From NCBI GenBank assembly GCA_030323885.1, contig CM059192.1, positions 72,001 to 136,000 of the forward strand: a DNA stretch of 64,000 nt. The letters are read 5' to 3'. This document shows positions 10,541 to 54,599 of this stretch, one piece after another. This stretch comes from Branchipolynoe longqiensis. Its lineage: Eukaryota; Annelida; Polychaeta; Phyllodocida; Polynoidae. The notes beneath the pieces are model-generated. The model saw nothing but the letters and a program-made list of their open reading frames with translations, ran no database searches and was not told the DNA's origin. Within the stretch, counting starts at the first letter, position 1; every line of letters starts with the position of its first letter. A program made the translations under genes and the position numbers.

Positions 10541-11826
10541 ACACATTCTCCCTCACTCTCCCTCACTCTCGTCCCTCTCTTGTTTCACTCTCCCTCACTC
10601 TCCATCACTCTCAATCACTCTCCCCTCGCTGTGTGCCCACTGTGGGTGATTGAATTGCTGGTGCTGTCTCCACTGTTCACATTGTGCTTTTGTTGTTTCA
10701 CTCTCCCTCACTCTCCCTCACTCTCGTCCCTCGCTGTGTGCCCACTGTGGGTGATTGACTTGCTGGTGCTGCCTCCACTGTTCACATTGTGCTTCTGTTG
10801 TTTCACTCTCCCTCACTCTCCCTCACTCTCGTCCCTCGCTGTGTGCCCACGGTGGGTGATTGACTTGCTGGTGCTGCTTCCACTGTTCACATTGTGCTTC
10901 TGATGTTTCACTCTCCCTCACTCCCCCTCACTCTCCGCTCGCTGTGTGCCCACTGTGGGTGATTGACTTGCTGGTGTTGCCTCCACTGTTCACATTGTGC
11001 TTCTGTTTCACTCTCCCTCACTCTCGTCCCTCGCTGTGTGCCCACTGTGGGTGATTGACTTGCTGGTGCTGCTTCCACTGTTCACATTGTGCTTCTGATG
11101 TTTCACTCTCCCTCACTCCCCCTCACTCTCCCTCACTCTCCCCTCGCTGTGTGCCCACTGTGGGTGATTGACTTGCTGGTGCTGCTTCCACTGTTCACAT
11201 TGTGCTTCTGATGTTTCACTCTCCCTCACTCCCCCTCACTCTCTCCCTCACTCTCCCCTCGCTGTGTGCCCACTGTGGGTGATTGACTTGCTGGTGCTGC
11301 CTCCCACTGTTCACATCTGTGCTTCCTGATGTTTCACTGCTCCCTCCACTCTTCCATCACTTCCCTCACCTCTCCCTCACTCTCCCCTCGCTGTGTGCCC
11401 ACTGTGGGTGTTTGACTTGCTGGTGCTGCTTCCACTGTTCACATTGTGCTTCTGATGTTTCACTCTCCCTCACTCTCCCTCACTCTCTATCACTCTCCCC
11501 TCGCTGTGTGCCCACTGTGGGTGATTGACTTGCTGGTGCTGCCTCCACTGTTCACATTGTGCTTCTGTTGTCTCACTCTCCCTCACTCTCCCTCACTCTC
11601 GTCCCTCGCTGTGTGCCCACTGTGGGTGATTGACTTGCTGGTGCTGCCTCCACTGTTCACACTGTGCTTCCTTTGTTTCACTCTCCCTCACTCTCCATCA
11701 CTCTCCCTCACTCTCCCCTCGCTGTGTGCCCACTGTGGGTGATTGACTTGCTGGTGCTGCTTCCACTGTTCACATTGTGCTTCTGATGTTTCACTCTCCC
11801 TCACTCCCCCTCACTCTCCCTCACTT
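10541..11826. repeat. ~105-130-bp minisatellite upstream of DNAJC12 exon
   Basis: About eleven units, each with GCTGTGTGCCCACTGTGGGT, then GATTGACTTGCTGGTGCTGC, then CCACTGTTCACATTGTGCTT and a CTCTCCCTCACTCTCC block. Two further units at 12182-12390 follow a LINE insertion. The final, divergent unit supplies the pyrimidine tract and AG of the 12399 exon, so the array is an amplified intron 3' end. Confidence 0.93.
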
Positions 11827-12181
11827 TATTAAACTGTGTGGATTTCATGGCCCTGCGCCAACACTTTTACACTGCAAACAACATGCAAGACCTTTTTACT
11901 AAAGTAAAACAAGAAAAGATTTTAGCTTTTTTGAGGGCAGCTGGTTTGTACCAACTCATATAAGTTTTTAAACAAATTTCATCAGTGAATAATACTATCA
12001 TTTAGACTTTTATTTAGCTATATGATTGTGAGTTTACAAAATTCATGAGTGTCCATTGACACAAAATTGATTGTATGCTTTTACATGTAAAAGCGATGGT
12101 TTGAACAAAAACAAACATTTCTCGCCGTGAATATGGCCTATGCTGCCGACACGGCGTAAGGCAACCACCAATCAATCAATC
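11826..12181 (+). pseudogene. LINE 3' end (C-terminus and CAAT-tailed 3' UTR)
   Basis: An open frame 11826-11963 encodes the last 45 residues of a LINE protein, with a Cys near its start, FMALRQHFYTANNMQDLF and a final FLRAAGLYQLI. This is the layout of many APE-type LINE C-termini. The 3' UTR ends with TATGCTGCCGACACGGCGTA, then AGGCAACC and (CAAT)n. The same end recurs at 39766 and, in part, at 15829. It is 5'-truncated and interrupts the minisatellite. This LINE differs from the one at 13741. Confidence 0.7.
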
Positions 12182-12398
12182 AACCCTCACTCTCCCTCAC
12201 TCTCGTCCCTCGCTGTGTGCCCACTGTGGGTGATTGAATTGCTGGTGCTGTCTCCACTGTTCACATTGTGCTTCTGTTGTTTCACTCTCCCTCACTCTCC
12301 CTCACTCTCATCCCTCGCTGTGTGCCCGCTGTGTGCCCACTGTGGGTGATTGAATTGTTGGTGCTGTCTCCACTGTTCACACTGTGCTTCTGTTTCAG
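12182..12398. repeat. Last units of the ~110-bp minisatellite, with splice acceptor
   Basis: Two units continue the 10541-11826 array. The second runs into CACTGTGCTTCTGTTTCAG at 12380-12398, directly before the coding exon. Internal units have CTTCTGTTGTTTCAC or CTTCTGATGTTTCAC at the same place, so the working AG corresponds to AC in the other units. Confidence 0.9.
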
Positions 12399-12477
12399 AC
12401 GGAGCAGATTCTGGCCGAGTACAAAGTGAGGGTCCTGCAGTGTCACCCGGACAAGCACCAGGACGACCACACCGCGC
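12399..12477 (+). CDS. DNAJC12: DNAJC12-like exon, J-domain helices II and HPD loop
   Basis: Encodes 26 codons plus one base, including QILAEYKVRVLQCHPDKH. HPD at 12444-12452 is the J-domain tripeptide that stimulates Hsp70 ATPase. The segment aligns closely with the matching part of vertebrate DNAJC12 and insect JDP, and its length between HPDKH and the next helix is identical after splicing. The acceptor is TTTCAG at 12393-12398 and the donor GTACGT at 12478; the downstream intron is phase 1. DNAJC12 is a cytosolic Hsp40 co-chaperone; in vertebrates it assists folding of aromatic amino acid hydroxylases. The preceding exon, with the initiator Met and helix I, was not found upstream in the window. 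Confidence 0.93.
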
Positions 12478-13165
12478 GTACGTGTGTGTGTGTGGTGTGT
12501 GTGTGTGTGGTGTAGCCAGTGTGTGTGTGTGTGGTGTGTAGCCAGTGTGTGTGGTGTGTAGCTGGTGTGTGTGTGGTGTGTATCTGATGTATGTTGTGTA
12601 GCCGGTGTGTGTGTGGTGTGTAGCCAGTGTATGTGGTGTGTAGCCGGTGGGTGTGGTGTGCACCTGGTGGGTGTGGTGTGTAGCCAGTATGTGTAGCTGG
12701 TGTATGGTATGTAGCTGGTGTATAGTGTGTAGCCGGTGTGTATAGCTGGTGTGTGGTGTGTAGATGGTGTGTGGTGTGTAGATGGTGTGTGGTGTGTAGC
12801 AGGTGTGGTGTGTAGCTGGTGTGTGGTGTGTAGCCGTTGTGTGGTGTGTAGCTGGTGTGTGGTGTGTAGCCGTTGTGTGGTGTATAGCTGGTGTCTGGTG
12901 TGTAGCTGGTGTGTGGTGTGTAGCTGGTGTGTGGTGTGTAGATGGTGTGTGGTGTGTAGCTGGTGTGTGGTGTGTAGCCAGTGTGTGGTGTGTAGCCGTT
13001 GTGTGGTGTGTAGCCGGTGTGTGGTGTGTAGCCGGTGTGTGGTGTGTAGCCGGTGTGTGGTGTGTAGCCGGTGTGTGGTGTGTAGCCGTTGTCTGGTGTG
13101 TGGTGTGTAGCCGGTGTGTGGTGTGTGGCAGGTGTGTGGTGTGTAGCCAGTGTATGGTGATTGTG
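12478..13165. repeat. 18-bp minisatellite starting at the splice donor
   Basis: Units of GTGTGTGGTGTGTAGCCG begin within a few bases of the donor of the 12399-12477 exon, first as GT-rich variants. Because 18 is a multiple of three, frames stay open on both strands (up to 328 codons on the minus strand). These are artefacts rich in Thr/His or Val/Cys. Confidence 0.95.
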
Positions 13166-13253: not shown

Positions 13254-13600
13254 AGTTGCATAGTCCAATGGTTTTCACTTTCTGAAATTGTTCTGAGATA
13301 AATATATTGAATTGGTTGTTATAACCTACCTTACTTTAGTTTGAAGTAACTTTCATTTTTAATGGCTAACCTTCGAGATATTTGAGGTGCAAACATCCTA
13401 AATTGATTTTGGCAAGCATGCCAAAACTCTAACACCATAGGCTTATGCAGTAACAGGTTCTGTTAAATTGACTCAGTATGCCCTTCTATGTGGCAACAAA
13501 TGTTTAATAAATGCACCAATATCTAAGTTAGATAATTAGAATCAAATCTAGGTGAGTGTTTTTGTTTTGAAAATTTAATGCTTCATCGGACTATGCAGCT
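13254..13600. mobile_element. M3: TTAA-flanked MITE, complete
   Basis: The ends are inverted: AGTTGCATAGTCCAATG on the left and CATCGGACTATGCAGCT on the right. TTAA lies immediately outside at 13250-13253 and 13601-13604. Length is 347 bp with no coding capacity. TTAA duplication is the target preference of piggyBac-type transposases, though the termini do not look like classical piggyBac. This is the commonest element in the window, with about ten full or partial copies. Confidence 0.88.
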
Positions 13601-13832
13601 TTAACCTGATTTAATTCTAATTCTGACAGTCTATAAGTACGTCCTTTTGAACATGCATCTATTGTATTAAAGTTACATAGTCCAAAAATCCTAAAATTGT
13701 CGAAAATAAACACATGTGACCTTACATATCCAACTTAGATCATCATCATCATCATCATCATCATCATGCTGTCTGTCGCGATGCGACAAAGACTGCTTTC
13801 ATTACTTGACTGCCGCTCTCCATTTAGCTCTG

Positions 13833-14394
13833 CTATGAGAGTTGCGTCCATGAGTCGGTCTTAATGTCTCTCAGCTTCAGGTTTCTCTTGATGGTATCCT
13901 TGAACCGGAGACGAGGGCGCCCTCTCTTTCTGTAACCAGAAGACAGTTGAGAATAGAGGATCTGCTTTGGTAGCTTGTCTGATGACATCCTCATGAGGTG
14001 TCCAGTCCACCGGAGATTCTTTTTGATCAGAAGATCTTCCATAGAGGGCAGCGAGTATTTCCTTATTTGTCACTTTGTCCTTCCAGGTTAGCCTCATGAT
14101 TGAACGCAGATGCCACATCATGAATGCATGCAGCTTTTTCACCTGTCGTCTGTGCACTGTCCAGGCCTCGGCTCCGTATAGTAGGGTGGAGAGCACAATT
14201 GCACGGTAGATCTTGCCTTTGACCCGAATGGACACATGGTGGTTGTTCCAGAGTCTCTGGCGTAGTCGGCCGAAAGATTCGCTAGCCTTGGCCATCCTCC
14301 TCTGTATTTCAGCATCAATGCGTCCATCACTTGATATAGTGCTTCCGAGGTAGGTGAATTCCGGAACAGAGTTCAGCTTGTTTCCATCAACCAT
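13833..14394 (-). pseudogene. LINE reverse transcriptase, C-terminal part (frameshifted)
   Basis: Reads FTYLGSTISSDGRIDAEIQR, then LSTLLYGAEAWTVHRRQVKK and TWKDKVTNKEIL, the typical region after the RT domain. Near 14045 the frame changes and the remaining residues (KKNLRWTGHLMRMSSDKLPK to KLRDIKTDSWTQLS) continue in another frame to 13833. With the break near 14400-14444 this makes at least two disabling lesions in the ORF. Confidence 0.9.
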
Positions 14395-14443
14395 GATCTC
14401 CTCTCAGGTTCTTGTACAGTTGGGTTGGTACAGCACCTCCGTC

Positions 14444-15631
14444 TTACAGGCCAAACTTCTTTGATGCATCGGAGAAAGCATCCACTATTTTCTGGATCTC
14501 TTCAGCAGAGTGGGCAACCAGTGCACTGTCATCTGCAAATAGCAGCTCTCTCACCAGTATCCGAGTAGTCTTGGTCTTCGCTCTGAAGTGTGTGACATTG
14601 AATAGGTCAGCGCTCTGTCTGGACTGTATATAGATGCCATCCCCCATGTCTCGGAAAGCCTCGTCGAGCATTGCTGATAGGAAGATGGAGGCCAGTACAC
14701 AACCTTGCTTGACCCCAGTGGTAACCCCAAACGATTCCGAGACTTCCCCTCCAACATTAATGTTCGCCATCATTCCTGTATGTAGAGCCTCGATCATAGT
14801 TTTGAACTTCTCTGGGCATCCGTACTTCCTCAGTAGCTGCCATAGCCCGGTCCTCCCGACTGTATCAAATGCCTTAGTGAAATCGATAAATACCATGTAC
14901 AGTGGTCGGTCCTGCTCAATGCACTTTTCTTGTAGCTGTCGGAGACAAAATATCATATCCACGGTGCTCCAGTTACCTCTTAAGCCACACTGTGACTCCG
15001 GAACTAAATCAGGTGTTATGTGAATAGATAGTCTGTTGAGGAGGATCCTGGCGAAGATCTTGCCTGCTATGGAAAAAAGAGAGATTCCTCTATAGTTCCC
15101 ACAGTCTGTTCGATCACCTTTCTTGTAGATGGTTACAATGCTGGCATCCTTCCATGCTTGGGGTACAGAACTCTCCTCCCAGGCATTGGTGATTAGTTGG
15201 TGCAGTCTGTTGAACAGATTGTCTCCTCCGTGCTTCCATACTTCAGCAGGAATTCCATCACCCCCAGGTGCTTTGCCCTCTTTCAGGCTGGCGATTGCTC
15301 TAGCCATCTCATCCATGGTTGGAATCTCATCGAGGCATGTTTTGGTAATGCGCTGCTGGATGTTGTCCAGAGCTTCGTGATCTATGTCACCAGGGACGTT
15401 GAGTAGCTTCTGGAAGTGTTCACTCCATCTTGCCACAACTCTCTTGCTGTCAGAAAAGGTCTCCATTCCATCTGTTGATTTCAGGTGAACAGGTCCCTTC
15501 TTCACGGGTCCCCACACTTCCTTCAGTCCACTGTAGAAGCCCTTCATGTTGTTTCTGTCTGCAGCTCTCTGCAGCTCCTCTGCTTTCATTTCCCACCAGT
15601 CTGACTTCAATGCGCGGGTGCATTTTTGTAG
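14444..15631 (-). pseudogene. LINE reverse transcriptase, polymerase part
   Basis: About 396 codons carry the fingers and palm of a non-LTR reverse transcriptase. They include GGDGIPAEVWKHGG, VTIYKKGDRTDCGNYRGISL, then FIDFTKAFDTV (first catalytic Asp), GVKQGCVLASIF and FADDSALVAHS (catalytic Asp pair). The frame opens upstream to a Met at 15688, but those first codons come from the antisense of the host MITE and are not LINE sequence. It ends at a stop near 14444, where an apparent deletion and frame change separate it from the C-terminal part. Clade not assigned with confidence. Confidence 0.92.
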
Positions 15632-15957
15632 CTTAGATACTGGTGTATTATTAAGTATTTGTTGCTTCAATTTAATGGAATGCTTCACAAAAGCAATTTA
15701 ATTGAACGCGATACTAATGAAGCCTATGAGTTTTGGCAAGCACACCAAAATATAATTTGCATGTTTACACATAAAATATCTCCAAAGTTACATTTTAGGT
15801 CAAAGTTACTTGAAGCTAATAATAATATGACACGGCGTAAAGCAACCACAAAGCAATCGATCAGTCAAGCTGATATAATTAGATTAAAACAATCAACCTA
15901 ATATATTTATCTCGGAAAAAGATAGAAACTCAAAACCATCGGACTCCGCAACTTTAA

Positions 15958-16085
15958 GAAGCCAATCCGTGACCTGACTGCGCACCCGAGCGGCCGCCAG
16001 GGGGCGATCTGCTGGCGCCCCATGATGACAGCCTGAGCTAGTGGCGCCCCCCTGGAGGCCAACTGGTGGCGCAGCCTGGTGTGCG
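15958..16085. promoter_or_regulatory. Cluster of CTCF-like GC-rich motifs (tentative)
   Basis: Contains CCGCCAGGGGGCGATCTG at 15994-16011, then GTGGCGCCCCCCTGGAGGCC and CTGGTGGCGCAGCC within 75 bases. The first is close to the known CTCF core (CCASYAGGGGGCGC). It lies in the long DNAJC12 intron just before the acceptor array. Function is inferred from the motif only. Confidence 0.3.
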
Positions 16086-17862
16086 CCGGTACTGACGGCC
16101 TGTTGTCTGGTTACAGCGGGCTTGTACTGACGGCCTGTTGCCTGGTTACAGCGGGCCAGTACTGATGGCCCGTTGCTTGGTTACAGCAGGCCTGTACGGA
16201 CATCCTGTGCTTGGTTACAGCAGGCCTGTACTGATGGCCTGTTGCCTGGTTACAGCAGGCCTGTACTGATGGCCTGTTGCCTGGTTACAGCAGGCCTGTA
16301 CTGATGGCCTGTTGTCTGGTTACAGCGGGCTTGTACTGACGGCCTGTTGCCTGGTTACAGCGGGCCAGTACTGATGGCCCGTTGCTTGGTTACAGCAGGC
16401 CTGTACGGACGTCCTGTGCTTTGTTACAGCAGGCCTGTACTGATGGCCTGTTGCCTGGTTACAGCAGGCCTGTACTGATGGCCTGTTGCCTGGTTACAGC
16501 AGGCCTGTACTGACGGCCTGTTGCCTGGTTAGAGCGAGCCTGTACTCACTGCCTGTTGCCTGGTTACAGCAGGCCTGTACTGATGGCCTGTTGCCTGGTT
16601 AGAGCGGGCCTGTACTGATGGCCTGTTGTCTGGTTACACCTTGCCGGTACTGACGGCCTGTGCTTGGTTGCAGCAGGCCTGTACTGACAGTCTGTTGCCT
16701 GGTTACAGTGGGCCGGTACTGACGGCCTGTGCTTGGTTACAGCGGGCCGGTACTGACGGCCTGTTGCCTGGTTAAAGCAGGCCTGTGCTGACGGCCTGTG
16801 CATGGTTACAGTGGGCCGGTACTGACGGCCTATGTCTGGTTACAGCGGGCCAGTACTGACGGCCTCTGCATGGTTACAGCGGACTGGTACTGACAGCCTG
16901 TGCATGGTTACAGTGGGCCGGTACTGACTGCCTGTGCCTGGTTACACTGGGCCAGTACTGACGGCCTGTGCATGGTTACAGTGGGCCGGTACTGACGGCC
17001 TATGTCTGGTTACAGCGGGCCGTTACTGACGGCCTGTGCATGGTTACAGTGGGCTGGTACTGACGGCCTATGTCTGGTTACAGCGGGCCGGTACTGATGT
17101 CCTGTGCATGGTTACAGCGGGCCGGTACTGACGGCCTATGTCTGGTTACAGCGGGCTGGTACTGACGGCCTGTGCATGGTTACAATGGGTCGGTACTGAC
17201 GGCCTATGTCTGGTTACAGTGGGCCGGTACTGACGGCATGTGCATGGTTACAGTGGGCGGGTACTGACGGCCTGTGCCTGGTTACACTGGGCCAGTACTG
17301 TGGCCTGTGCTTGGTTACAGCAGGCCTGTACTGATGGCCTGTTGCCTGGTTAAAGTTGGCATGTACTGACGGCCTGTGCCTGGTTACAGTGGGCCAGTAT
17401 TGACGGCCTGTTGCCTGGTTAAAGCAGGCCTGTACTGACGGCCGGCCTGTTGCCTGGTTACACTGGGCCGGTACTGACGGACTGTTGCCTGGTTACAGTG
17501 GGTTGGTACTGATGGCCTGTTGCCTGGTTACAGCAGACTGGTACTGACGGCCTGTTGCCTGGTTACAGTGGACTGGTACTGATGGACTGTTGCCTGGTTA
17601 CAGTGGACCGGTACTGATGGACTGTTGACTGGTTACAGCGGACCGGTACTGACAGCCTGTTGCCTGGTTACAGTGGACCGGTACTGACGGACTGTTGCCT
17701 GGTTACTGTGGACCAGTACTGACAGCCTGTTGCCTGGTTACAGTGGACTGGTACTGACGGCATGTTGCCTGGTTACAGTGGACCGGTACTGACGGCATGT
17801 TGCCTGGTTACGGCGGACGGTGCTGACAGCCAGTTGCCTGGTTACAGTTGACCGGTACTGAC
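16086..17862. repeat. 34/35-bp minisatellite carrying a splice-acceptor motif
   Basis: About fifty units of GGTTACAGNGGNCCGGTACTGACGGCCTGTTGCCT (shown with variable bases as N), period 34-35. The piece CTGGTTACAGCGGACCGG recurs exactly at the junction of the DNAJC12 exon at 22425, where TTACAG is the acceptor and CGGACCGG the first exon bases. The array therefore repeats a splice acceptor plus exon start. It is interrupted near its right end by the Gypsy element and resumes for one unit at 22400-22424. Confidence 0.95.
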
Positions 17863-17980
17863 TGTAATGATGTATCGACACACTGGATTCTGTAAGGTAA
17901 CCGACTTTATTGGTTCTCGACTTCGATCACGTCACGTCCTGTTATTGGGGGGGGGCGTTCGGATACTTACATATCTTACA
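17863..17980 (-). repeat. Gypsy 3' LTR (118 bp)
   Basis: Nearly identical to 22284-22399 apart from G-run length and a few bases. It starts TGTAATGATG and ends TATCTTACA. TATTTCAGCC-type differences are not seen, so insertion is fairly recent. AATAAA occurs on the minus strand within it (TTTATTGG on plus). The CTGAC target duplication lies outside at 17858-17862. Inside, 17981-17990 reads as a purine tract on the minus strand. Confidence 0.93.
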
Positions 17981-18376
17981 TCTTCCCCTTTTATCACCAA
18001 GCAATACTTGGTCATGTAATATTTCTTACCCCATATCGTCACAACACTTAAATTAAACATGTGATATGTCTCGCGTGCAATGTTATTCTATAAAATGTGA
18101 TATTAAATCGGATGTCTGTCTAACAGTATTGCTTACTTAGTCTCTAGACTTACTTAATACGATGTTTTATGCTAGATTACACGTCCGTTCCGATGAACAT
18201 CCGTGCGTGAGTGCTGCTCATTACCGTCTATTCTTAACTGTATCCTATTGTCTACGTTCTTTGTATGACCTATCGGCGCCGTGTGACGTCATCCTATGTC
18301 TGTCTGCGTCATTGCCTTTTCTTATTCATTTAATAACGCGACCCTTCCTTGTTTGACCCACTACGTCTACGTAGTG

Positions 18377-19240
18377 CTACGTTGTATTCATGTTAAAACG
18401 TGTCGGAGGCTTACTAATTCTACCGTATCTTGTAGTGTAAGGTGAGTTATTTGTGGGTGTTAGACTCCTCTTTGTTATTTTCTCATTTACAATTGTTTGT
18501 GGACATTTGAAAATAAATTTCCTGTTTCTCCTTAACATATTACCTTTGTTATTACGAATTGTATAATCCCTCTTTCTAATGCCACCCGTCTCTGCGATGT
18601 GACCCAGCTCCCACTCATTATTATAATTTCTGTATCTAATTCGGTCTCCTACTTGTAAAAATGAATGTTCCTTGCCTGCGTGTCTGTCAAAATTTCTTTT
18701 TTGGATAAGTTGCCTATGCTGTAATTGTCTTGACATTGATGGTTCTATTGTAGCTTTTAGGCGATTATTCAATATTGGTAACCTAGATCTTAAACGTCTT
18801 GACATCAGCATCTGAGCTGGCGATGCTTTTATACCTTCTAATGATGTGTTCCTGTAGTTGAGCATGGCTATGTTAACATCAGTTTCATCCTTATGACATT
18901 TTCTTATCATGTTCTTGAAGGTCTGGACAGAACGTTCAGCCTGTCCATTACTTTGCGGGTGCATGGGATTAGTAAAGATTGGCTCAAACCCATAATACAC
19001 AGCAAAGTCATGAAATTCCCTGCTCGAAAATTGGGGACCATTGTCCGATACTACATATCGTGGAACGCCATGTCTACTAAATATTTGCTTCATAACATTA
19101 ATAACAGCCTTACTGGTAGTTTCTAACAATTCGACAACTTCGGGGAACTTTGAGTAATAATCGACAATTACTATGTAATCCTTATCCCCAACATGAAACA
19201 AGTCAACTCCAACTTTATTATATGGTACATCGGTTATCAC
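18377..19240 (-). pseudogene. Gypsy integrase catalytic core and C-terminus
   Basis: Carries the DDE triad in context: VGVDLF, SDNGPQFSS and NGQAERSVQTFK. A C-terminal region with RIRYRNYNNEWELGHIAE and RNRKFI resembles the GPY/F module. The frame differs by one base from the upstream RNase H/zinc-binding part, with the break at about 19241. The stop lies at 18377, about 400 bases before the LTR; that spacer holds no further gene. Confidence 0.92.
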
Positions 19241-20273
19241 ATGGTTGATTAATGGTTCTTTTCGCTGGCATTTTTCGACACTCTTGGCAAATAGTACATC
19301 GGGATACCGTCTCTTCTAACGTTCCCATCATCCCTGGCCAGAACACAGTGTCCCTCGCCAATTGTTTGCTTTTTATAATACCTAAATGAGCTTCATGCAA
19401 TTTTTTTAACATGTCTGTTCGCATCGATCTAGGGATAATAATTTGTGAACCCCTTAACAGTACTCCTTCAGACATGGTAATTTCGTCCTTAAATCTAAAA
19501 AACATCTGAACATCTGAGTCGAGGGCTTTTCCCTCTCTAGGCCAACCATGTATCGACAAGTCAATAATTTTTATCAGTGTCGGATCCAACACTGTTTCCC
19601 GCTTAGCGGCTTGGACCACGTCAGGATCAATCCCAATTGAAGCTACTGATATGTCCCGATCGTATAGGTCGTCAGGGGTCACACTTGATGTATGGGCTCT
19701 TGACAGGGTATCTGCAAAGAATAATTCAGTACCCTTCAAATATTGTACTTCAATATTATAATTCTGCAGCCTCATACGCATTCGTTGCATTCTTGCCGAT
19801 AGAGAATGCACCGGTTTCAACATTATTGCTACCAAGGGTTTATGATCTGTAATGACTGTGATTTCGTTTCCATAAATATAATCGTGAAATTTATTGCATC
19901 CGAAACAAATGGCTAATAACTCCTTTTCTATTACCGCATAACTGATTTGGGTGTCGTTTAGTGCTTTGGATGCCATAGCCACTGGTAATTTATCCTGGAA
20001 CAAGGTGGCACCCAATCCAAATTTGGATGCGTCTACTTGCAGAACAATGTGTTCTCTGCTATTGAAGAATCTCAACACTGGTGCGGTAGTCAATAAATAC
20101 TTCAAATTTTTGAAAGCTAAGGCTTGGTCCGCTTCCCAGTGCCAAGCTATATCCTTTTTTAATACTTGTCTTAACGGCTTTGTTATATGCGCCATGTTGG
20201 GGATAAATTTGTGTACATAACCCATCATTCCTAAGAACCGTTGCAATGCGGGTTTGTCTGACGGGCTGGGCAT
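19218..20273 (-). pseudogene. Gypsy RNase H and integrase zinc-binding domain
   Basis: Begins in the RT connection (LQRFLGMMGYVHKFIPNMA). RNase H follows with LQVDASKFGLGA, EKELLAI and ITDHKPL, then a Ty3-type LSARMQRMRM stretch. An HHCC zinc-binding domain (HEAHLG, CTICQEC) ends it. It is separated from the RT by a one-base frame change near 20380 and from the integrase core by another near 19241. Confidence 0.92.
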
Positions 20274-20355
20274 GTCGACAATTGCTTGTATTCTTTCAGC
20301 ATTGGGTTGGATACCTTCGGATGTTATAACATGTCCTACATAATTTACATTTGTC

Positions 20356-20985
20356 CTACATATCTTCGACTTGTTTCGGGTTCAGTTTCAGGTTTACTTG
20401 AATAGCTCGCTTCAGAACAGCTTCTAATCTTGAGTTATGCTCATCAATTGTTGACCCATGTACCAAGATATCATCTGTGATAACATGTACCCCTGGCAGA
20501 TCCATTAGAATCAGATTCATTTCCTGTATGAATATATCCCCGGCTGTTTTGATGCCGAACGGAAGTCTCGTAAACCTGAACCTGCCCCACGGGGTGTTGA
20601 ACGTGCATAATCTCGAACTTTCATTGTCGAGTTCGATTTGCCAGTATCCGCTATTTGCGTCAAGCACTGACAAATATTTGGCACCGTGCAACGTCGCTAC
20701 CACCTCTTCGACAGTTTTAACGGGGTAGGGACCTCGTAGGATAGCATTATTTAACCGTGTAGGATCTAGGCATATTCGTAATTTCCCCGGTTTCCTGACT
20801 ATTGTTACAGAACTCACCCAAGGGGTAGGCTCGTCTTGTTTTATGATAACCCCTAGGTCTAACATCCTTTTTAGTTCCATTTTGACATCGTCCACAATTG
20901 CTAATGGCACTCGACGTGGAGGGTCGATTACAGGGCATATGTTCTTATCAATGTAAATCTTAGCATTAACTTTGATGAGGCCTAA
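20356..20985 (-). pseudogene. Gypsy reverse transcriptase
   Basis: The palm motifs are LDANSGYWQIEL, RLPFGIKTA and a YxDD-box equivalent VITDDILVHG near 20468-20485. The frame is open upstream of the first Met (20910) to about 20985, where a PPRRVPLAI segment typical of the Gypsy RT start is encoded. The preceding gag-protease frame ends at 20990 in a different phase. A stop after VEDM at 20356 follows the frame change. Confidence 0.92.
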
Positions 20986-20989
20986 ACCC

Positions 20990-22258
20990 TCAGTATTGCC
21001 TTACCAGTTGATTTGCGATCTCATCACCCTCTACGGCGCCCAAGACATCTAACCGCGCCAATAAGCCTAATTGGACACACGATTGTTTTCCTAGAATCGC
21101 GCACCCGGCGTCCGTAACTTGAAATTTGATGCAGTGGCCCTCGACATTAAGGGATACCTCCCCATGCGGGCGAATCCTATGCCCACCATATGTCACTAAA
21201 TGACACAATGATGGAACCATACATGCTTTACTTATTTTATTGTACATTCTTAGCGGTAAAATATTGGCCTCTGATCCAGTATCCAATTTAAAACGGATAT
21301 CTAGGCCACCGACACAAAATACAGTGTACCACAACTCATTGTCCTCCTTGTCACTAGTACACAAGGTGCCTACAAACAAGTCCCCATTCACATCATCATT
21401 GTGACTGTCTCTTTCCTGATGAGCGATGATGTCCTCTGTCACATCAATCTCGTATACGGCTGCATTCCTACCTGTGTCTTGCTGCAACCGGCACATCTTC
21501 ACGAAATGTCCAATTTTTCGACATCCTAGACATTCTTTGCCTCTAGCTGGGCACGTCCCTGTTGCATGTGTATATCTGCATTGATTACACTTGTTACCCG
21601 CTCGTCGACTTGCTTGTTGTTGTTGATATCGACCAGCTGATCGCCGTATCCAAGGAGACGTCCCTGCTGCAGGCCGTTGTCTGTTCGTATATCCCGTCTG
21701 TACTGCATCGACTTGGTGTACGTCCCTCTGTTTTACTTGGGCGGATTTGATTTCGCTTAATCGACATAGTTGTATGCATTCTTCTAGCTTGAGATCTGGC
21801 AACTGTAACAGCTTGTTCCTTAATATATCATCCGTTACACCGCACACAATTCTGTCACATAGCAACGAAGATTCCAATTGTTCATAACAGCAATATTGCA
21901 CTCGGTGTTTAAGCTCTCTTATAAATGAATCCATACTTTGTTCCGCCTGATTAAAAGAGTTGAACTCGTAACGAATGACTGTCAAATTCGTTTTACCTTC
22001 ACAATACCGTGCAAACGCGTCTACCAATGGCTGTATCTTGTCTTTGTCCGTACCTTCCAGTGTGAAGGTCCTATGAACTTTCTGGGCTTCCACCCCCGCG
22101 ATGTGCAAAAATACGCAGCATTGAATCCGTTCTGTCTTCGTCAATCCACCAGCTGCTACAGCATATATTTTGTATGCCTGTAGCCAGCATCGCCAATTGA
22201 CCGCCATCTTTTCGTCCAGGTTCAGATATCCTGGTGGTTTCAGCCCGTGAAGCGCCAT
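20990..22258 (-). pseudogene. Gypsy gag with zinc knuckles and aspartic protease
   Basis: A 422-codon frame starts 26 bases inside the 5' LTR. The N-terminal half is a capsid-like region (VDAFARYCEGKTNLTVIRYE, FIRELKHRVQYCCYEQ). Two knuckles follow: CNQCRYTHATGTC, and a CX2CX4HX4C unit CLGCRKIGHFVKMC. Near the C-terminus is the retropepsin site KLDTGSEANILP. The frame itself is intact; only its connection to pol is out of phase, so it is filed with the broken element. Confidence 0.9.
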
Positions 22259-22283
22259 AATTCGACCTTAACATCTGACACCA

Positions 22284-22399
22284 TGTAATGATGTATCGAC
22301 ACACTGGATTCTGTAAGGTAACCGACTTTATTGGTTCTCGACTTCGATCACGTCACGTCCTGTTATTGGGGGGGCGTTCCGATACTTACATATCTTACA
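22284..22399 (-). repeat. Gypsy 5' LTR (116 bp)
   Basis: Matches 17863-17980. It ends 25 bases before the DNAJC12 exon at 22425, so the sequence upstream of that splice acceptor is mostly LTR. CTGAC at 22400-22404 is the second target-site copy. Confidence 0.93.
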
Positions 22400-22424
22400 C
22401 TGACGGCATGTTGCCTGGTTACAG

Positions 22425-22564
22425 CGGACCGGTTCGCGCGGCTGCAGACGGCCAAGGAGACACTGTGTGACGGGGAGGCACGCCGCGACTACGACACCTG
22501 GCGCCGCAGCGGGCTGGCGCTGAACTACACGGACTGGCGGGCCCGACGCGACGTGATGCACGCC
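22425..22564 (+). CDS. DNAJC12: DNAJC12-like exon, end of J domain
   Basis: With one base from the preceding exon it encodes P then DRFARLQTAKETLCDGEARR, DYDTWRRSGLALNYTDW and ARRDVMHA. This matches the J-domain helix III/IV region and following segment of DNAJC12 (human has FQKLQKAKEIL and ARYDHWRRS at the same positions). The acceptor is GGTTACAG at 22417-22424, identical to the repeat unit of the adjacent array. The donor is GTGAGT at 22565 and the next intron is phase 0. GC-rich codons contrast with the neighbouring AT-rich repeats. Confidence 0.95.
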
Positions 22565-22572
22565 GTGAGTAC

Positions 22573-23908: not shown

Positions 23909-24023
23909 TCGATGCACTGGGCCATGAAGACGAAGAAAGATGCGATGCTCGAGGACGTGGCGCCACCTGGCGGCAAGCCGCAGTCACCAGAGGGCAGCAC
24001 CGACTCGTGGACAAGCGCGGTCG
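23909..24023 (+). CDS. DNAJC12: DNAJC12-like exon, central region
   Basis: Encodes SMHWAMKTKKDAMLEDVAPP and then GGKPQSPEGSTDSWTSAV plus one base. SMHW followed by a KK-x-x-MLE stretch is the conserved post-J segment of DNAJC12. The remainder is a low-complexity linker, shorter than in vertebrates. The acceptor is CCTCACAG (AG at 23907-23908) and the donor GTGAGC at 24024; the following intron is phase 1. A GCGCCACCTGGCGGC word within the coding sequence matches a motif found repeatedly in the non-coding part of this window. Confidence 0.93.
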
Positions 24024-26181: not shown

Positions 26182-26261
26182 GTAACCAATGGACGACGTC
26201 GTCATGGCAACACTGGACTCCCAGCGAACACATCACCAAGTTCAGGAATTACGAGATCTGA
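26182..26261 (+). CDS. DNAJC12: DNAJC12-like terminal exon
   Basis: Completes a Gly codon with the preceding exon, then encodes NQWTTSSWQHWTPSEHITKF, RNYEI and TGA (26259-26261). The C-terminal KFRNYEI is identical to the end of vertebrate DNAJC12 and is the family's most diagnostic motif. The acceptor is CTTTCCAG (AG at 26180-26181). From 12399 the four exons sum to 414 bases, 137 codons plus stop, in one frame. A possible AATAAA lies at 27172-27177, about 0.9 kb downstream. Confidence 0.95.
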
Positions 26262-44493: not shown

Positions 44494-44815
44494 CTGTAGT
44501 GGTCTGCACTGACCTCTCAGGCAAGTAACCACATAGACAGGTAGGCGTGGGGAGTGTGTTGATATCAGGGAGCCTAGGTGGTGTAATGGTTAGCACACTG
44601 GCCCGGAATGCAAAGAGATGTGGGTTCGAGTCCCGCTCTAGGCGCAGTATTTCCCATTTTCATCACCCCCATGACACTGGTTGCCGTGATCAGGATCCTG
44701 TACAAGCTTTGCGCTGTATGGTTGTTGAACCTACCCTGTGTATGTATGTGTTAGTGCATTGCCTGTATGTATGTAATTGTCAGCATTACAAGACTTACAA
44801 TTCCAGGGGGACGAG
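44494..44815 (+). mobile_element. SINE-B, full unit within satellite
   Basis: Upstream head GTAGTGGTCTGCACTGACCT, tRNA-like part with box A TGGTGTAATGGTTAGCACAC (44579-44598) and box B GGGTTCGAGTCCC (44622-44634), then the shared body to GTTGAACCTACCC and a GTATGTATGT tail. Confidence 0.87.
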
Positions 44816-44996
44816 TGTAGTGGTCTGCACTGACCTCTCAGGCAAGTAACCACATAGACAGGTAGGCATGGGGAGTGTGTTGATATCAGGGAGCCTAGGT
44901 GGTGTAATGGTTAGCACACTGGCCCGGAATGCAAAGAGATGTGGGTTCGAGTCCCGCTCTAGGCGCAGTATTTCCCATTTTCATCACCCCCATGAC
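44816..44996 (+). mobile_element. SINE-B, tandem partial duplicate
   Basis: Repeats the first 180 bases of the preceding unit almost exactly, then switches at CCCATGACA directly to satellite sequence. The near-identity and blunt switch point to duplication by recombination within the array and not to a second retroposition. Confidence 0.87.
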
Positions 44997-47900
44997 AATA
45001 CCTACTCACACTGCCTACAATACACTACCTACTCACACTACCTACACTACAATACCAGTTCACACTACGTACACTACAATACCTACTCACACTACCTACA
45101 CTACACTACCTACTCACACTACCTACACTATACTACCTACTCACACTACCTACACTACAATACCTGCTCACACTACCTACACTACACTACATACTCACAC
45201 TACCTACACTACAATACCTACTCACACTACCTACACTACACTACCTACTCGCATTACCTACACTACAATACCTACTCACACTACCTACACTACACTACCT
45301 ACTCACACTACCTTCACTACACTACCTACTCACAGTACCTTCATTACACTAGCTACTCACACTACCTACACTACAATACCTACTCACACTACATACACTA
45401 CAATACCTACACACACTACCTACACTACACTACCTACTCACACTACCTACACTATACTACCCACACACACTACCTACACTACACTACCTGCTCACACTAC
45501 CTACACTACACTACATACTTACACTACCTACACTACAATACCAGTTCACACTACGTACACTAGAATACCTACTCACACTACCTACACTACAATACCTACT
45601 CACACTACCTACACTATACTACCTACTCACACTACCTACACTACACTAGCTGCTCACACTACCTACACTACACTACCTGCTCACACTACCTACACTACAA
45701 TACATACTCACACTACCTACACTACACTACATACTCACCCTACCTACACTACAATACCTGCTCACACTACCTACACTACAATACATACTCACACTACCTA
45801 CACTACAATACCTACTGACACTACCTACACTACAATACCTACTCACACTACCTACACTATGCTACCTACTCACACTACCTACAATGCACTACCTACTCAC
45901 ACTACGTTCACTACACTACCTACTCACACTACCTACACTATGCTACCTACTCACACTACCTACACTAATCTACATACTCACACTACCTACACTATAATAC
46001 CTACTCACACTACCTACACTACACTACCTACTCACACTACATACACTACAATACCTGCTCACACTACCTACACGAAAATACCTACTCACACTACCTACAC
46101 AACAATACCAGCTCACACTACCTATACTACACTACCTACTCACACTACCTACACTACAATACCAGCTCACACTACCTACACTACAATACCAGCTCACACT
46201 ACCTACACTACCCTACCTACTCACACTACCTACAGTACAATACCTACTCACATTACCTACACAACAATACCAGCTCACACTACCTACACTACCCTACCTA
46301 CTCACACTACCTACACTACAATACCTGCTCACACTACCTACACTACAATACCTGCTCACACTACCTACACTACAATACCTGCTCACACTACCTACACTAC
46401 ACTACCTACTGACACAACCTACACTACACTACCTGCTCACACTACCTATACTACAATACCTTCTCACACTACCTACCCTACACTTCCTACTCACACTACC
46501 TACTCCACAATACCTTCTCACACTACCTACACTACACTACCTACTCACACTACCTACACTACACTACCTACTCACACTACCTACACTACACAACCTACTC
46601 CTACTACCTACACCACACTACCTACTCACACTACCTACACTACACTACCTGCTCACACTACCTACACTACACTACCTACTCACACTACCTACACTACACT
46701 ACCTACTCACACTACCTACACTACACTACCTACTCACACTACCTTCACTACACTACCTACTCACACTACCTACACTACACTACCTGCTCACACTACCTAC
46801 ACTACAATACCTACTCACACTACCTACACTACAATACCTACTCACACTACCTACACTACACTACCTACTCACACTACTTACACTACAATACCTACTCACA
46901 CTACCTACACTACACTACCTAGTCACACTACCTACACTACACTACCTACTCACACTACGTACACTACACTACCTGCTCACACTACCTACACTACAGTACC
47001 TACTCACACTACCTACACTACACTACCTACTCACACTACCTACACTATACTACCTACACTACACTACCTACTCACCCTACCTACACTACAATACCTGCTC
47101 ACACTACCTACACTACACTACCTACTCACACTACCCACACTACACTGCCTACTCACAATACCTACTCACACTACCTACACTACAATACCTACTCACACTA
47201 CCTACACTACGCAACATACTCACACTACCTACACTATTATACCTACTCACACTACCTACACTACACTACCTACTCACACTACCTACACTACAATACCTAC
47301 TCGCACTACCTACACTACAATACCTGCTCACACTACCTACACTACACTACCTGCTCACACTACCTACACTACAATACCTACTCACACTACCTACACTACA
47401 ATACATACACTACACTACCTACTCACACTACCTACACTACACTACCTACTCACACTACCTACACTACAATACCTACTCACACTACCTACAATGCGCTACA
47501 TACTCACACTACCTACACTACAATACCTACTCACACTACCTACACTACAATACCTACTCACACTACCTACACTACACTACATACTCACACTAACTACACT
47601 ACAATACCTACTCACACTATCTACACTACAATACCTAGTCACACTATATACACTACAATACCAGCTCACACTACCTACACTACCCTACCTACTCACACTA
47701 CCTACACTACAATAGCTTCTCACACTACCTACACTACAATACCAGTTCACACTACATACACTACAATACCTACTCACACTAACTGCACTACGCTACATAC
47801 GCAGACTACCTACACTACAATACCTACTCACACTAGCTGCACTACAAAACCAACTCACACTACCTACACTATAATACCTGCTCACACTACCTACACTACA

Positions 47901-50900
47901 ATACCTACTCATACTATCTACACTACAATACCAGCTCACACTACGTACACTACACTACCTACTCACACTACCTACACTACACTACCTGCTCACACTACCT
48001 ACACTACAATGCCTACTCACACTACCTACACTACAATACCTACTCACACTACCTACACTACAATACCTACTCACACTACCTACATTACACTACCACCTCA
48101 CACTACGTACACTACACTACCTACTCACACTACCTACACTACAATACCTACTCACACTACGTACACTACAATACCTACTCACACTACCTACACTACAATA
48201 CCTACTCACACTACATACACTACAATACCTACTCACACTACCTACACTACCTACTCACACTACTTACACTACAATACCTACTCACACTACCTACACTACA
48301 CTATCTAGTCACACTACCTACACTACACTACCTACTCACACTATGTACACTACACTACCTGCTCACACTACGTACACTACAATACCTACTCACACTACCT
48401 ACACTACACTACCTACTCACACTACATACACTACACTACCTACACTACACTACCTACTCACCCTACCTACACTACAATACCTGCTCACACTACCTACACT
48501 ACACTACCTACTCACACTACCCACACTACACTGCCTACTCACAATACCTACTCACACTACCTACACTACAATACCTACTCACCCTACCTACACTATGCAA
48601 CATACTCACACTACCTACACTATTATACCTACTCACACTACCTACACTACACTACCTACTCACACTACCTACACTACAATACCTACTCGCACTACCTACA
48701 CTACAATACCTGCTCACACTACCTACACTACACTACCTGCTCACACTACCTACACTACAATACCTACTCACACTACCTACATTACAATACCTACACTACA
48801 CTACATACTCACACTACCTAGACTACACTACCTACTCACACTACCTACACTACAATACCTACTCACACTACCTACAATACGCTACATACTCACACTACCT
48901 ACACTACAATACCTACTCACACTACCTACACTACACTACATACTCACACTACCTACACTACAATACCTACTCACACTATCTACACTACAATACCTACTCA
49001 CACTATCTACACTACAATACCAGCTCACACTACCTACACTACCCTACCTACTCACACTACCTACACTACAATAGCTTCTCACACTACCTACACTACAATA
49101 CCAGTTCACCCTACATACACTACAATACCTACTCACACTACCTGCACTACGCTACATACTCAGACTACCTACACTACAATACCTACTCACACTACCTGCA
49201 CTACAATACATACTCACACTACCTACACCATAATACCTGCTCACACTACCTACACTACAATACCTACTCATACTATCTACACTACAATACCAGCTCACAC
49301 TACGTACACTACACTACCTACTCACACTACCTACACTACACTACCTGCTCACACTACCTACACTACAATACCTACTCACACTACCTACACTACAATACCT
49401 ACTCACACTACCTACACTACAATACCTACTCACACTACCTACATTACACTACCAGCTCACACTACGTACACTACACTACCTACTCACACTACCTACACTA
49501 CAATACCTACTCACACTACCTAAACTACAATACCTACTCACACTACCTACACTACAATACCTACTCACACTACCTACGCTACACTACCTACTCAGACTAC
49601 CTACACTACAATACCTACTCACACTACTTACACTACAATACCTACTCACCCTACCTACACTACAATACCTACTCACCCTACCTACACTACACTACCTGCT
49701 CACACTACCTACCCTACAATACCTACTCACACTACCTACACTACAATACCTGCTCACACTACCTACACTACCTACTCACACTACCTACACTACACTACCT
49801 ACTCACACTACCTACTCACACTACCTACACTACAATACCTACTCACACTACCTACCCTACGCTACACACTCACACTACCTACACTATGATACCTACTCAC
49901 ACTACCTACACTACACTACCTACTCACACTACCTACACTACAATACATACTCACACTACCTACACTACAATACCTACTCACACTACCTACACTACACTAC
50001 CTGTTCACACTACCTATACTACACTACCTGCTCACACTACCTACACTACAATACCTACTCACACTACCTACACTACAATACCTACACTACACTACCTACT
50101 CACACTACCTACACTACAATACCTACTCACACTACCTACACCATGGAACATACTCAGACTACCTACACTGCAATACATACTCACACTACCTACACTACAC
50201 TACCTTCTCACACTACCTACACTACACTACCTTCTCACACTACCTACACTACAATACCTACTCACACTATCTACACTACAATACCTACTCACACTACCTA
50301 CACTACAATACCTACTCACACTACCTACACTACACTACATAGTGACACTACCTACACTACAATACCTACTCACACTATCTACACTAGAATACCTAATCAC
50401 ACTATATACACTACAATACCAGCTCACACTACCTACACTACCCTACCTACTCACACTACCTACACTACAATACCTTCTCACACTACATACACTACACTAC
50501 CTACTCACACTACCTGCACTATGCTACATATTCAGACTACCTACACTGCAATACCTACTCACACTACCTACACTACAATACCTACTCACACTATCTGCAC
50601 TACAATACCTACTCACACTACCTACACTACAATACCTGCTCACACTACCTACACGGCAATACCTACTCACACTATCTACACTGCAATACCAGCTCACACT
50701 ACGTACACTACACTACCTACTCTCACTACCTACACTACACTACCTGCTCACACTACCTACACTACAATACCTACTCACACTACCTACACTACAATACCTA
50801 CTCACACTACCTACACTACAATACCTACTCACACTACCTACACTACAATACCAGTTCACACTACCTACACTACACTACCTACTCACACTACCTACACTAC

Positions 50901-53900
50901 ACTATCTACTCACACTACCTACACTACAATGCCTACTCACACTACCTACACTACACTACATACTCACACTACCTACACTACAATACCTACTCATACTATC
51001 TACACTACAATACCTACTCACACTATCTACACTACAATACCAGCTCACACTACCTACACTACCCTACCTACTCACACTACCTACACTACAATACCTTCTC
51101 ACACTACCTACACTACAATACCAGTTCACACTACGTACACTACAATACCTACTCACACTACCTACACTACGCTACATTCTCAGACTACCTACACTACAAT
51201 ACCTACTCACACTACCTACACTACAATACCTACTCACACTACCTGCACTACAGTACCTACTCACACTACCTACACTACAATACCTGCTCACACTACCTAC
51301 ACTACAATACCTACTCACACTATCTACACTACAATACCAGCTCAGACTACGTACACTACACTACCTACTCACACTACCTACACTATACTACATGCTCACA
51401 CTACCTACACTACAATACCTACTCACACTACCTAGACTACAATACCTACTCACCCTACCTACACTACAATACCTACTCACACTACCTACACTACAATGCC
51501 AGTTCACACTACCTACACTACACTACCTACTCACACTACTATACACTACACTACCTACTCACACTACCTACTCTACAATACCTACTCACCACTACCTACA
51601 CTACAATACCTACTCACACTAACCTACACTACAATACCTACTCACACTACCTACACTACAATACCTACTCACACTACCTACACTGCAATACCTACTCCCA
51701 CTACCTACACTATAATACCAGTTCACACTACCTACACTACAATACCTACTCACACTACCTACACTACAATACCTACTCATACTACCTACACTACAATACC
51801 TGCTCACACTACCTACACTACAATACCTACTCACAGTACCTTCATTACACTAGCTACTCACACTACCTACACTATAATACCAGTTCACACTACCTACACT
51901 ACAATACCTACTCACACTACCTACACTACAATACCTACTCACACTACCTACACTACAATACATACTCACACTACCTACACTACAATACCTGCTCACACTA
52001 CCTACACTACAATACCTACTCACACTATCTACACTACAATACCAGCTCAGACTACATACACTACACTACCTACTCACACTCCCTACACTATACTACATGC
52101 TCACACTACCTACACTACAATACCTACTCACACTACCTACACTACAATACCTACTCACACTACCTACACTACAATACCTACTCACACTACCTAGACTACA
52201 ATACCTACTCACCCTACCTACACTACAATACCTACTCACACTACCTACACTACAATGCCAGTTCACACTACCTACACTACACTACCTACTCACACTACTT
52301 ACACTACACTACCTACTCACACTACCTACTCTACAATACCTACTCACACTACCTACACTACAATACCTACTCACACTACCTACACTACAATACCTACTCA
52401 CACTACCTACACTACAATACCTACTCACACTACCTACACTGCAATACCTACTCACACTACCTACACTATAATACCAGTTCACACTACCTACACTACAATA
52501 CCTACTCACACTACCTACACTACAATACCTACTCATACTACCTACACTACAATACCTGCTCACACTACCTACACTACAATACCTACTCACAGTACCTTCA
52601 TTACACTAGCTACTCACACTACCTACACTATAATACCAGTTCACACTACCTACACTACAATACCTACTCACACTACCTACACTACAATACCTACTCACAC
52701 TACCTACACTACAATACATACTCACACTACCTACACTACAATACCTGCTCACACTACCTACACTACAATACCTACTCACACTATCTACACTACAATACCA
52801 GCTCAGACTACGTACACTACACTACCTACTCACACTCCCTACACTATACTACATGCTCACACTACCTACCACTCACACCTACACTACACTACTACCACAC
52901 TACCTACACTACAATACCTACTCACACTACCTACACTACAATACCTACTCACACTACCTACACTACAATACCAGTTCACACCACCTACACTACACTACCT
53001 ACTCACACTACCTACACTACACTACCTACTCACACTACCTACACTACAACACCTACTCACACTACCTACACTACAATACCTACTCACACTACCTACACTA
53101 CAATACCTGCTCACACTACCTACACTACAATACCTACTCACACTACCTACACTATAATACCAGTTCACACTACCTACACTACAATACCTACTCACACTAC
53201 CTACACTACAATACCTACTCATACTACCTACACTACAATGCCTACTCACACTACGTACACTACAATACCTACACTCACTACCTACACTACAATACCTACT
53301 CACACTACCTACACTACAATACCTACTCACACTACCTACACTACAATACCTACTTACACTACCTACACTACAATACCTACTCACACTACCTACACTATAA
53401 TACCAGTTCACACTACCTACACTACAATACCTACTCACACTACCTACACTACAATACCTACTCACACTACCTACACTACAATACCAGTTCACACTACCTA
53501 CACTACACTACCTACTCACACTACCTACACTACAATACCTACTCACACTACCTACACTACAATACCTACTCACACTACCTACACTACAATACCTACTCAC
53601 ACTACCTACACTACAATACCAGTTCACACTGCGTACACTACAATACCACTCACACTACCTACACTACACTACCTAATCACACTACCTACACTATGCTACC
53701 TGCTCACACTACCTACACTACAATACCTACTCACACTACCTACACTACAATACCTACTCACACTACCTACACTACAATACCTACTCACACTACCTACACT
53801 ACAATACCAGTTCACACTACGTACACTACAATACCACTCACACTACCTACACTACACTACCTAATCACACTACCTACACTATGCTACCTGCTCACACTAC

Positions 53901-54525
53901 CTACAGTACAATACCTACTCACACTACCTACACTACAATACCTACTCACACTACCTACACTACAATACCTACTCACACTACCTACACTACAATACCAGTT
54001 CACACTACCTACACTACACTACCTACTCACACTACCTACACTACAATACCTACTCACACTACCTACACTACAATACCTACTCACACTACCTACACTACAA
54101 TACCTGCTCACACTACCTACACTATACTACCTACTCACACTACCTACACTACAATACCTACTCACACTACCTACACTACAATACCTGCTCACACTACCTA
54201 CACTACAATACCTACTCACACTACCTACACTACAATACCTGCTCACACTACCTACACTATACTACCTACTCACACTACCTACACTACAATACCTACTCAC
54301 ACTACCTACACTACAATACCTACTCACACTACCTACACTACAATACCAGTTCACACTACCTACACTACACTACCTACTCACACTACCTACACTACAATAC
54401 CTACTCACACTACCTACACTACAATACCTACTCACACTACCTACACTACAATACCTACTCACACTACCTACACTACAATACCAGTTCACACTACGTACAC
54501 TACAATACCACTCACACTACATACA
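44997..54525. repeat. 27-bp satellite, ~9.5 kb, with higher-order repeats
   Basis: About 350 units of CACTACCTACACTACAATAC followed by CTACTCA. Diagnostic variants recur at fixed spacing: CACTGCCTACTCACAATACC near 47142 and 48528, and CTATTATACC at 47235 and 48621, both offset by 1386 bp. CACTATACTACATGCTC occurs at about 51381, 52086 and 52842, offset 705-756 bp. Very long Thr/Tyr/His/Leu frames (up to 928 codons) exist, but they overlap in different frames and have no start context or domain. They are treated as non-coding. Confidence 0.96.
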
Positions 54526-54599
54526 CACACCGTCACTGTCAACATCTACGTGACACGAGCTCTGCTCTGTGATGTAAGTCTACCCTCAAATGGACAGCC

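Follow-up and report, generated by a model that had tools for sequence, protein, structure and literature searches.

How does one exon come to be preceded by some fifty copies of its own 3′ splice site? This question is raised by the gene DNAJC12 in a stretch of 64,000 nucleotides (contig CM059192.1, positions 72,001 to 136,000, of assembly GCA_030323885.1, deposited as Branchipolynoe longqiensis), referred to here as the window. A minisatellite in intron 2 of this gene is made up of copies of the exon-3 acceptor, the 3′ splice site with its AG at 22423-22424. About fifty such copies had been claimed in an original prediction made from the sequence of the window; 51 units were counted, 44 of them with AG in place. 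The answer proposed here, to which a probability of about 0.78 is given, is that this is a junction-spanning minisatellite of the type known as a mirage: the acceptor was duplicated in tandem and was later split off from its copies by a long terminal repeat (LTR) element.

Tandem Repeats Finder (TRF) describes the array as 51.3 copies of a 35-mer, and an anchor scan divides it into the 51 units, spaced at 33-39 bp. Each unit has a branch-point-like CTGAC or CTGAT, then TGGTTACAG or a version of it, then nine exon-like bases; about 26 of its bases correspond to intron and 9 to exon. In this single assembly the units diverge from one another: TGGTTACAG is identical in 37/51, a yTnAy motif lies about 21-26 nt upstream in 48/51, and in the exon-like part 4 to 9 of the 9 bases agree with the start of exon 3, most units having GGC where exon 3 has GAC. 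The original prediction held that one and the same string is found in the array unit and across the junction at 22425. With up to three mismatches the 18-mer CTGGTTACAGCGGACCGG occurs at 35 places in the window, namely 34 in 16107-17855 and one at 22415-22432, versus 0.04 expected in dinucleotide shuffles; an exact copy is present only at the exon-3 junction and in a single array unit (17629), and the claim is qualified to this extent. The 34-base junction string 22400-22433 is matched in the array at up to 33 bases; outside it, the best place on the window's + strand agrees at 19. When the 50-mer covering −40 to +10 around the exon-3 junction is used instead, 41 of its 42 copies cross the junction.

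Exons 2-5 of DNAJC12 join into one open frame with the C-terminus KFRNYEI. The joined protein has the features of DNAJC12, i.e., a J domain with HPD (PF00226, in exons 2-3, E 3.4e-12) and the family C-terminus KFRNYE[IVL]. As a query it retrieves 174 proteins with E values of 0.001 or below (strongest match 3.0e-31, with 100% of the query covered), and many of the named matches are called DNAJC12; the top DNAJC12 match is 48% identical over the whole query, and the highest identity among the matches listed is 50% over 76%. Joining exon 2 to exon 3 yields HPDKHQDDHTAPDRF. The spacing across this junction, HPDK followed by 10 residues and F, is the same in the window and in 119 of the 120 homologues among the matches listed (115 with HPDKH or HPDKN, 4 with HPDKQ and 1 with an insertion), which bears out the earlier claim that the frame across the junction matches the family length. 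The sole exception is a bird isoform (P0045), whose extra residues lie exactly at the exon 2/3 junction and, as we read them, would be consistent with the bird having an intron there. The AGs in 22300-22470 end at 22317, 22424, 22447, 22456, and 22459. Because only the AG ending at 22424 lies between 22317 and 22447, and because of the family spacing, the start of exon 3 is placed at 22425. Later acceptors (22447, 22456, 22459) were rejected, as they would delete conserved residues; other exon-2 donors within the GT run were likewise rejected, as by our reading they would cause a frameshift or insert extra residues.

The array and exon 3 are now 4.5 kb apart, separated by an LTR retrotransposon (Table 1). 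The two LTRs are identical at 115/116 aligned bases, with an additional 2-base difference in a G run. The element encodes pieces of reverse transcriptase, RNase H, and integrase, as well as a first long frame without a Pfam match; the order of the three domains suggests a Ty3/Gypsy type, and stretches resembling a primer-binding site and a polypurine tract appear to us to adjoin the LTRs. The target duplication flanking the element, CTGAC, is perfect and 5 bp long. When the element and one CTGAC are removed, an exact array unit continues without a gap into exon 3. Thus, until the element inserted, the array reached up to exon 3, and its last unit is the true acceptor, in agreement with the suggestion that the splice site sits in a repeat unit. 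As the LTR element sits inside a unit, the order of events is fixed: the array came first and the element later. The further claim, that the 3′ end of the intron carries tens of decoy acceptors, holds for the 44 units with AG, with the correction that the array no longer adjoins the exon. Neither the retrotransposon nor the known precedents, i.e., the mirages of lancelets and the variable number tandem repeat (VNTR) of ABCA7, had been noticed in the original prediction.

Table 1. Coordinates within the window of the DNAJC12 exons, the minisatellite and the inserted element.
Feature	Position	Strand	Basis
DNAJC12 exon 2, 79 nt, ends in phase 1, donor GTACGT at 12478	12399..12477	+	
Minisatellite, 51 units mostly 34-35 bp	16085..17862	+	TRF, anchor scan, motif counts
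Target-site duplication CTGAC, left copy	17858..17862	+	Empty-site reconstruction
LTR retrotransposon inserted in array	17863..22399	-	LTRs, domains, target duplication
LTR, 118 bp	17863..17980	-	
LTR, 116 bp	22284..22399	-	
Target-site duplication CTGAC, right copy; also nearest branch-point-like motif before true acceptor	22400..22404	+	
Last array unit: true acceptor (AG 22423-22424) and first 9 bases of exon 3	22400..22433	+	
DNAJC12 exon 3, 140 nt, donor GTGAGT at 22565	22425..22564	+	
DNAJC12 exon 4, 115 nt	23909..24023	+	
DNAJC12 exon 5, coding part to stop (...KFRNYEI, stop)	26182..26261	+	

The history of the locus may be pictured as follows. A segment across the existing 3′ splice site of exon 3, comprising about 26 bases of intron and 9 of exon, would have been duplicated in tandem and would then have grown to some fifty units within the intron, so that the true acceptor ended up in the last of them. 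An LTR retrotransposon, presumably of the Ty3/Gypsy type, would then have inserted at the CTGAC of that last unit, shifting the unit together with exon 3 by 4.5 kb and, by duplicating 5 bp, placing CTGAC on both sides of itself.

With so many similar acceptors in one intron, which one would be used? Using a score matrix built from 24 acceptors of the genome, the decoys have a median score of 5.1, and 23 of the 44 equal or exceed the score of the true site. Thus, local strength does not single out the true acceptor. Joining exon 2 to any of the 44 AG decoys brings in a stop, which comes after 4 codons in 41 of them and after 22-27 codons in the other 3; in the 41, the stop seems to us to fall within the branch-like motif of the unit that follows. 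A recursive-splicing (ratchet) site was considered and rejected, since this requires GT directly after the AG, and GT is found there in 0/51 units. Use of the last unit is the likeliest, as no other unit lies next to a real exon with a consensus donor: splicing would select it by exon definition, through exon 3 and its GTGAGT. Use of a decoy would give a premature stop and a message lost by nonsense-mediated decay, and the number of units would therefore be nearly neutral.

Did the array grow out of the acceptor, or was the acceptor captured by a foreign array? The start of exon 3 seems not to have moved, because the junction has the family spacing. The exact 18-mer CTGGTTACAGCGGACCGG occurs twice in the 1.85-Gb genome, and a query of two units (72 bases) has 30 matches in the whole genome, 29 in the array and 1 at the junction; the two-unit search passes over very common words, and its counts are lower bounds. 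A dispersed repeat or transposon as the source of the unit was rejected, as the two-unit query matched only the DNAJC12 locus in this search. The 10 exon-proximal units resemble the junction more closely than do the remaining 41 (Mann-Whitney p 8e-6 for the unit and 1e-3 for the exon part, with the split picked after the units had been seen), and the GAC of the exon occurs in these 10 and in one other. Together, the unmoved exon start, the likeness of the exon-proximal units and the restriction of the matches to this locus favour growth out of the existing acceptor, one of the two origins originally proposed, over capture. The opposite course, in which a minisatellite already present in the intron extended as far as the exon, had its last unit recruited as acceptor and overwrote the old splice site, is unlikely. 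It would suit a window very rich in tandem arrays (43% by TRF), where the tract before the exon-2 acceptor is itself the end of another array, so that arrays reaching exons are not rare, and it would suit the predominance of GGC over GAC in the units. However, recruitment would have had to leave the junction length unchanged and, by overwriting, to keep a unit with 9 exon-like bases and the residues PDRF, which are in keeping with the family (Pinctada and Batillaria have AERF); the residue pair at the junction is itself weak evidence, with an acidic first residue in 50/115 and R or K as the second in 10/115. A misjoined array or LTR element in the assembly is very improbable: tandem arrays are difficult to assemble, but the perfect target duplication, the near-identical LTRs and the unit-exact empty site are the marks of a real insertion, and the units differ among themselves instead of being identical. 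Short motifs ending in AG are frequent, so an ordinary array might resemble a splice junction by chance; the shuffles, the 34-base comparison and the empty site refute this, and its probability is close to nil.

Several observations weigh against growth out of the acceptor, or against the picture of the locus built on it. Over the full length of the array, similarity shows no significant trend (Spearman p 0.09 and 0.58). Among random 50-mers, 35% (n=600) have a copy within 7 kb, and 23% (n=300) have copies in the survey of CCT genes described below, so arrays close to exons are ordinary in this genome. The gene model is incomplete, as exon 1 of DNAJC12 was not found in C7:2001-84400 on the contig of the window (5000 bases of C7:2001-12000 being N). 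The true acceptor scores 4.9, lower than 16 of the 24 other acceptors (median 7.6), and 25/145 AGs at 13501-15800 also reach this score. A stop within four codons has a chance of about 1 in 6 by arithmetic, and the units are not independent; the stops after the decoys are therefore no proof of selection. In another reading, the array would be a functional battery of poison acceptors, in which more units would lead to more mis-spliced and degraded DNAJC12 message and so set the dosage. The scores of the decoys, the stops that all 44 lead to, and the altered splicing described with unit number of the human ABCA7 VNTR (available text of PMC5954066) point in this direction; on the other hand, lancelet mirages are described, in the available text of PMC3087553 and PMC3902484, as not interfering with regular splicing, and the LTR element has put the decoys 4.5 kb from the exon. 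A function of this kind is thus doubtful. Equally doubtful is its extension, that poison acceptors of equal strength and variable number tune the output of DNAJC12, and that the retrotransposon, by inserting at the branch-point motif and duplicating it, insulated the true acceptor from its decoys; if this were true, the locus would be a natural experiment in splice-site competition.

The architecture preferred here, an array that spans its own junction, is already known from lancelet mirages and, on the donor side, from the ABCA7 VNTR; the interruption by a transposon is the particular twist of the DNAJC12 case. As far as the available parts of the sources go, amphioxus mirages occur in the globins BflGb6 and BflGb9, Adh3, TnC, and PGBD5 (PMC3087553, PMC3902484). 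The BflGb6 mirage repeats the 3′ end of an intron and the 5′ part of the exon, and is therefore an acceptor-side case, with regular splicing reported as undisturbed; it has 6 and 3 units of 150-160 bp in two haplotypes, and the units of Adh3 are 10-72 bp. As in these mirages, the DNAJC12 units cross an exon-intron boundary and many, not all, keep the splice signal. Unlike the BflGb6 mirage, the DNAJC12 array has 51 units of mostly 34-35 bp, and unlike in the amphioxus cases described, an LTR element separates the last unit from the others. The report of mirages from cephalochordates concerns host range and is not a structural feature. The VNTR in intron 18 of human ABCA7, in the available text, has a 25-bp unit that includes the exon-18 donor; use of a decoy retains one unit, with a frameshift and premature stop, and the length of about 12 to 427 units changes splicing (PMC5954066). 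Both minisatellites include the splice site of their own exon, but the human one repeats a donor, whereas that of DNAJC12 repeats an acceptor and is known from one assembly. The exon-3 donor 50-mer of DNAJC12 has 0 copies at the threshold used, i.e., no donor unit of the ABCA7 kind was found there.

In human segmental duplications, expansion of internal tandem repeats is described as altering exon-intron structure, and repeats inside exons can become introns (PMC2812944, as far as available); in DNAJC12 the exon has not been changed, and the intron seems to sit at an old position. Earthworm metallothionein genes, also annelid, have intronic minisatellites, for which the available text does not mention spanning of a splice site (PMC12783039), whereas the DNAJC12 array spans one. 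No annelid minisatellite spanning a junction was recognised in the full-text literature searched, most subscription journals lying outside its coverage; the metallothionein introns came nearest. NAGNAG tandem acceptors also place several acceptors in tandem, with 3-nt spacing that stays in frame; the acceptors of the DNAJC12 array are spaced at 34-35 nt and lead to stops.

Is this arrangement general in the genome? Copies span only 1 of 50 boundaries surveyed. Among 19 boundaries of DNAJC12 and SIRT1, three have local 50-mer copies, and only the exon-3 acceptor is spanned; in four CCT genes 0/31 boundaries are spanned (32 strings were listed, one could not be located and was dropped, and verification by joining covered the CCT5 junctions only). 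One donor among these 31 has a single copy, starting at the first intron base. This CCT5 donor region (L035:9674-9775) is duplicated once, with the match running from intron base +1, and is possibly a two-unit, donor-side beginning of the same kind. Arrays are not enriched close to exons, as 3/19 boundaries lie within 40 bases of one, versus 25% of random points. The array at 10576-12394 (units of about 105-116 bp), whose end supplies the tract before the exon-2 acceptor, gives 11 50-mer copies, 0 of them spanning, and its units seem to us to end short of the exon-2 AG; the exon-2 donor runs directly into a GT-rich array at 12478-13159 (GTGTGTGGTGTGTAGCCG), with 7 donor 50-mer copies, again 0 spanning. 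The contig is 106 Mb long, with the window 72 kb from its start, and the array density of the window is above that of the other sampled stretches: arrays cover 33% of C7:2-72 kb, 19.5% of nine 10-kb stretches at a distance of 90 kb from the starts of other contigs, and 10.6% of ten interior stretches.

In a tree of CCT5 the genome groups with Capitella, Dimorphilus, Paralvinella, and Helobdella (88/86, below the star of the tool), pairs with a close relative (100/100) and is set apart from three hemichordates and a coral (98/96); this tree is of one gene, with 15 hand-chosen rows, and lancelet is not among them. The best named CCT5 match is Capitella, at 76%. The genome is probably that of an annelid. 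If the annelid placement holds, the mirage architecture extends to a spiralian with a large genome. The DNAJC12 array has far more units than the globin cases of lancelets, and the locus lends itself to a clean test of spliceosome choice among about 45 similar acceptors.

Upstream of the window, SIRT1 exons lie on the minus strand (C7, window coordinates −22699 to −36327), head to head with DNAJC12, which is also the order in human. A match to reverse transcriptase (14444-15697) and a neighbouring minus-strand frame, together at 13861-15697, lie in the same intron as the minisatellite and probably belong to a non-LTR element. Further downstream, two tRNA matches with equal scores (44572-44644 and 44893-44965) are situated 321 bp apart, just before a 27-bp array at 44995-54530, which has about 353 copies and a strong strand asymmetry (GC skew about −0.9).

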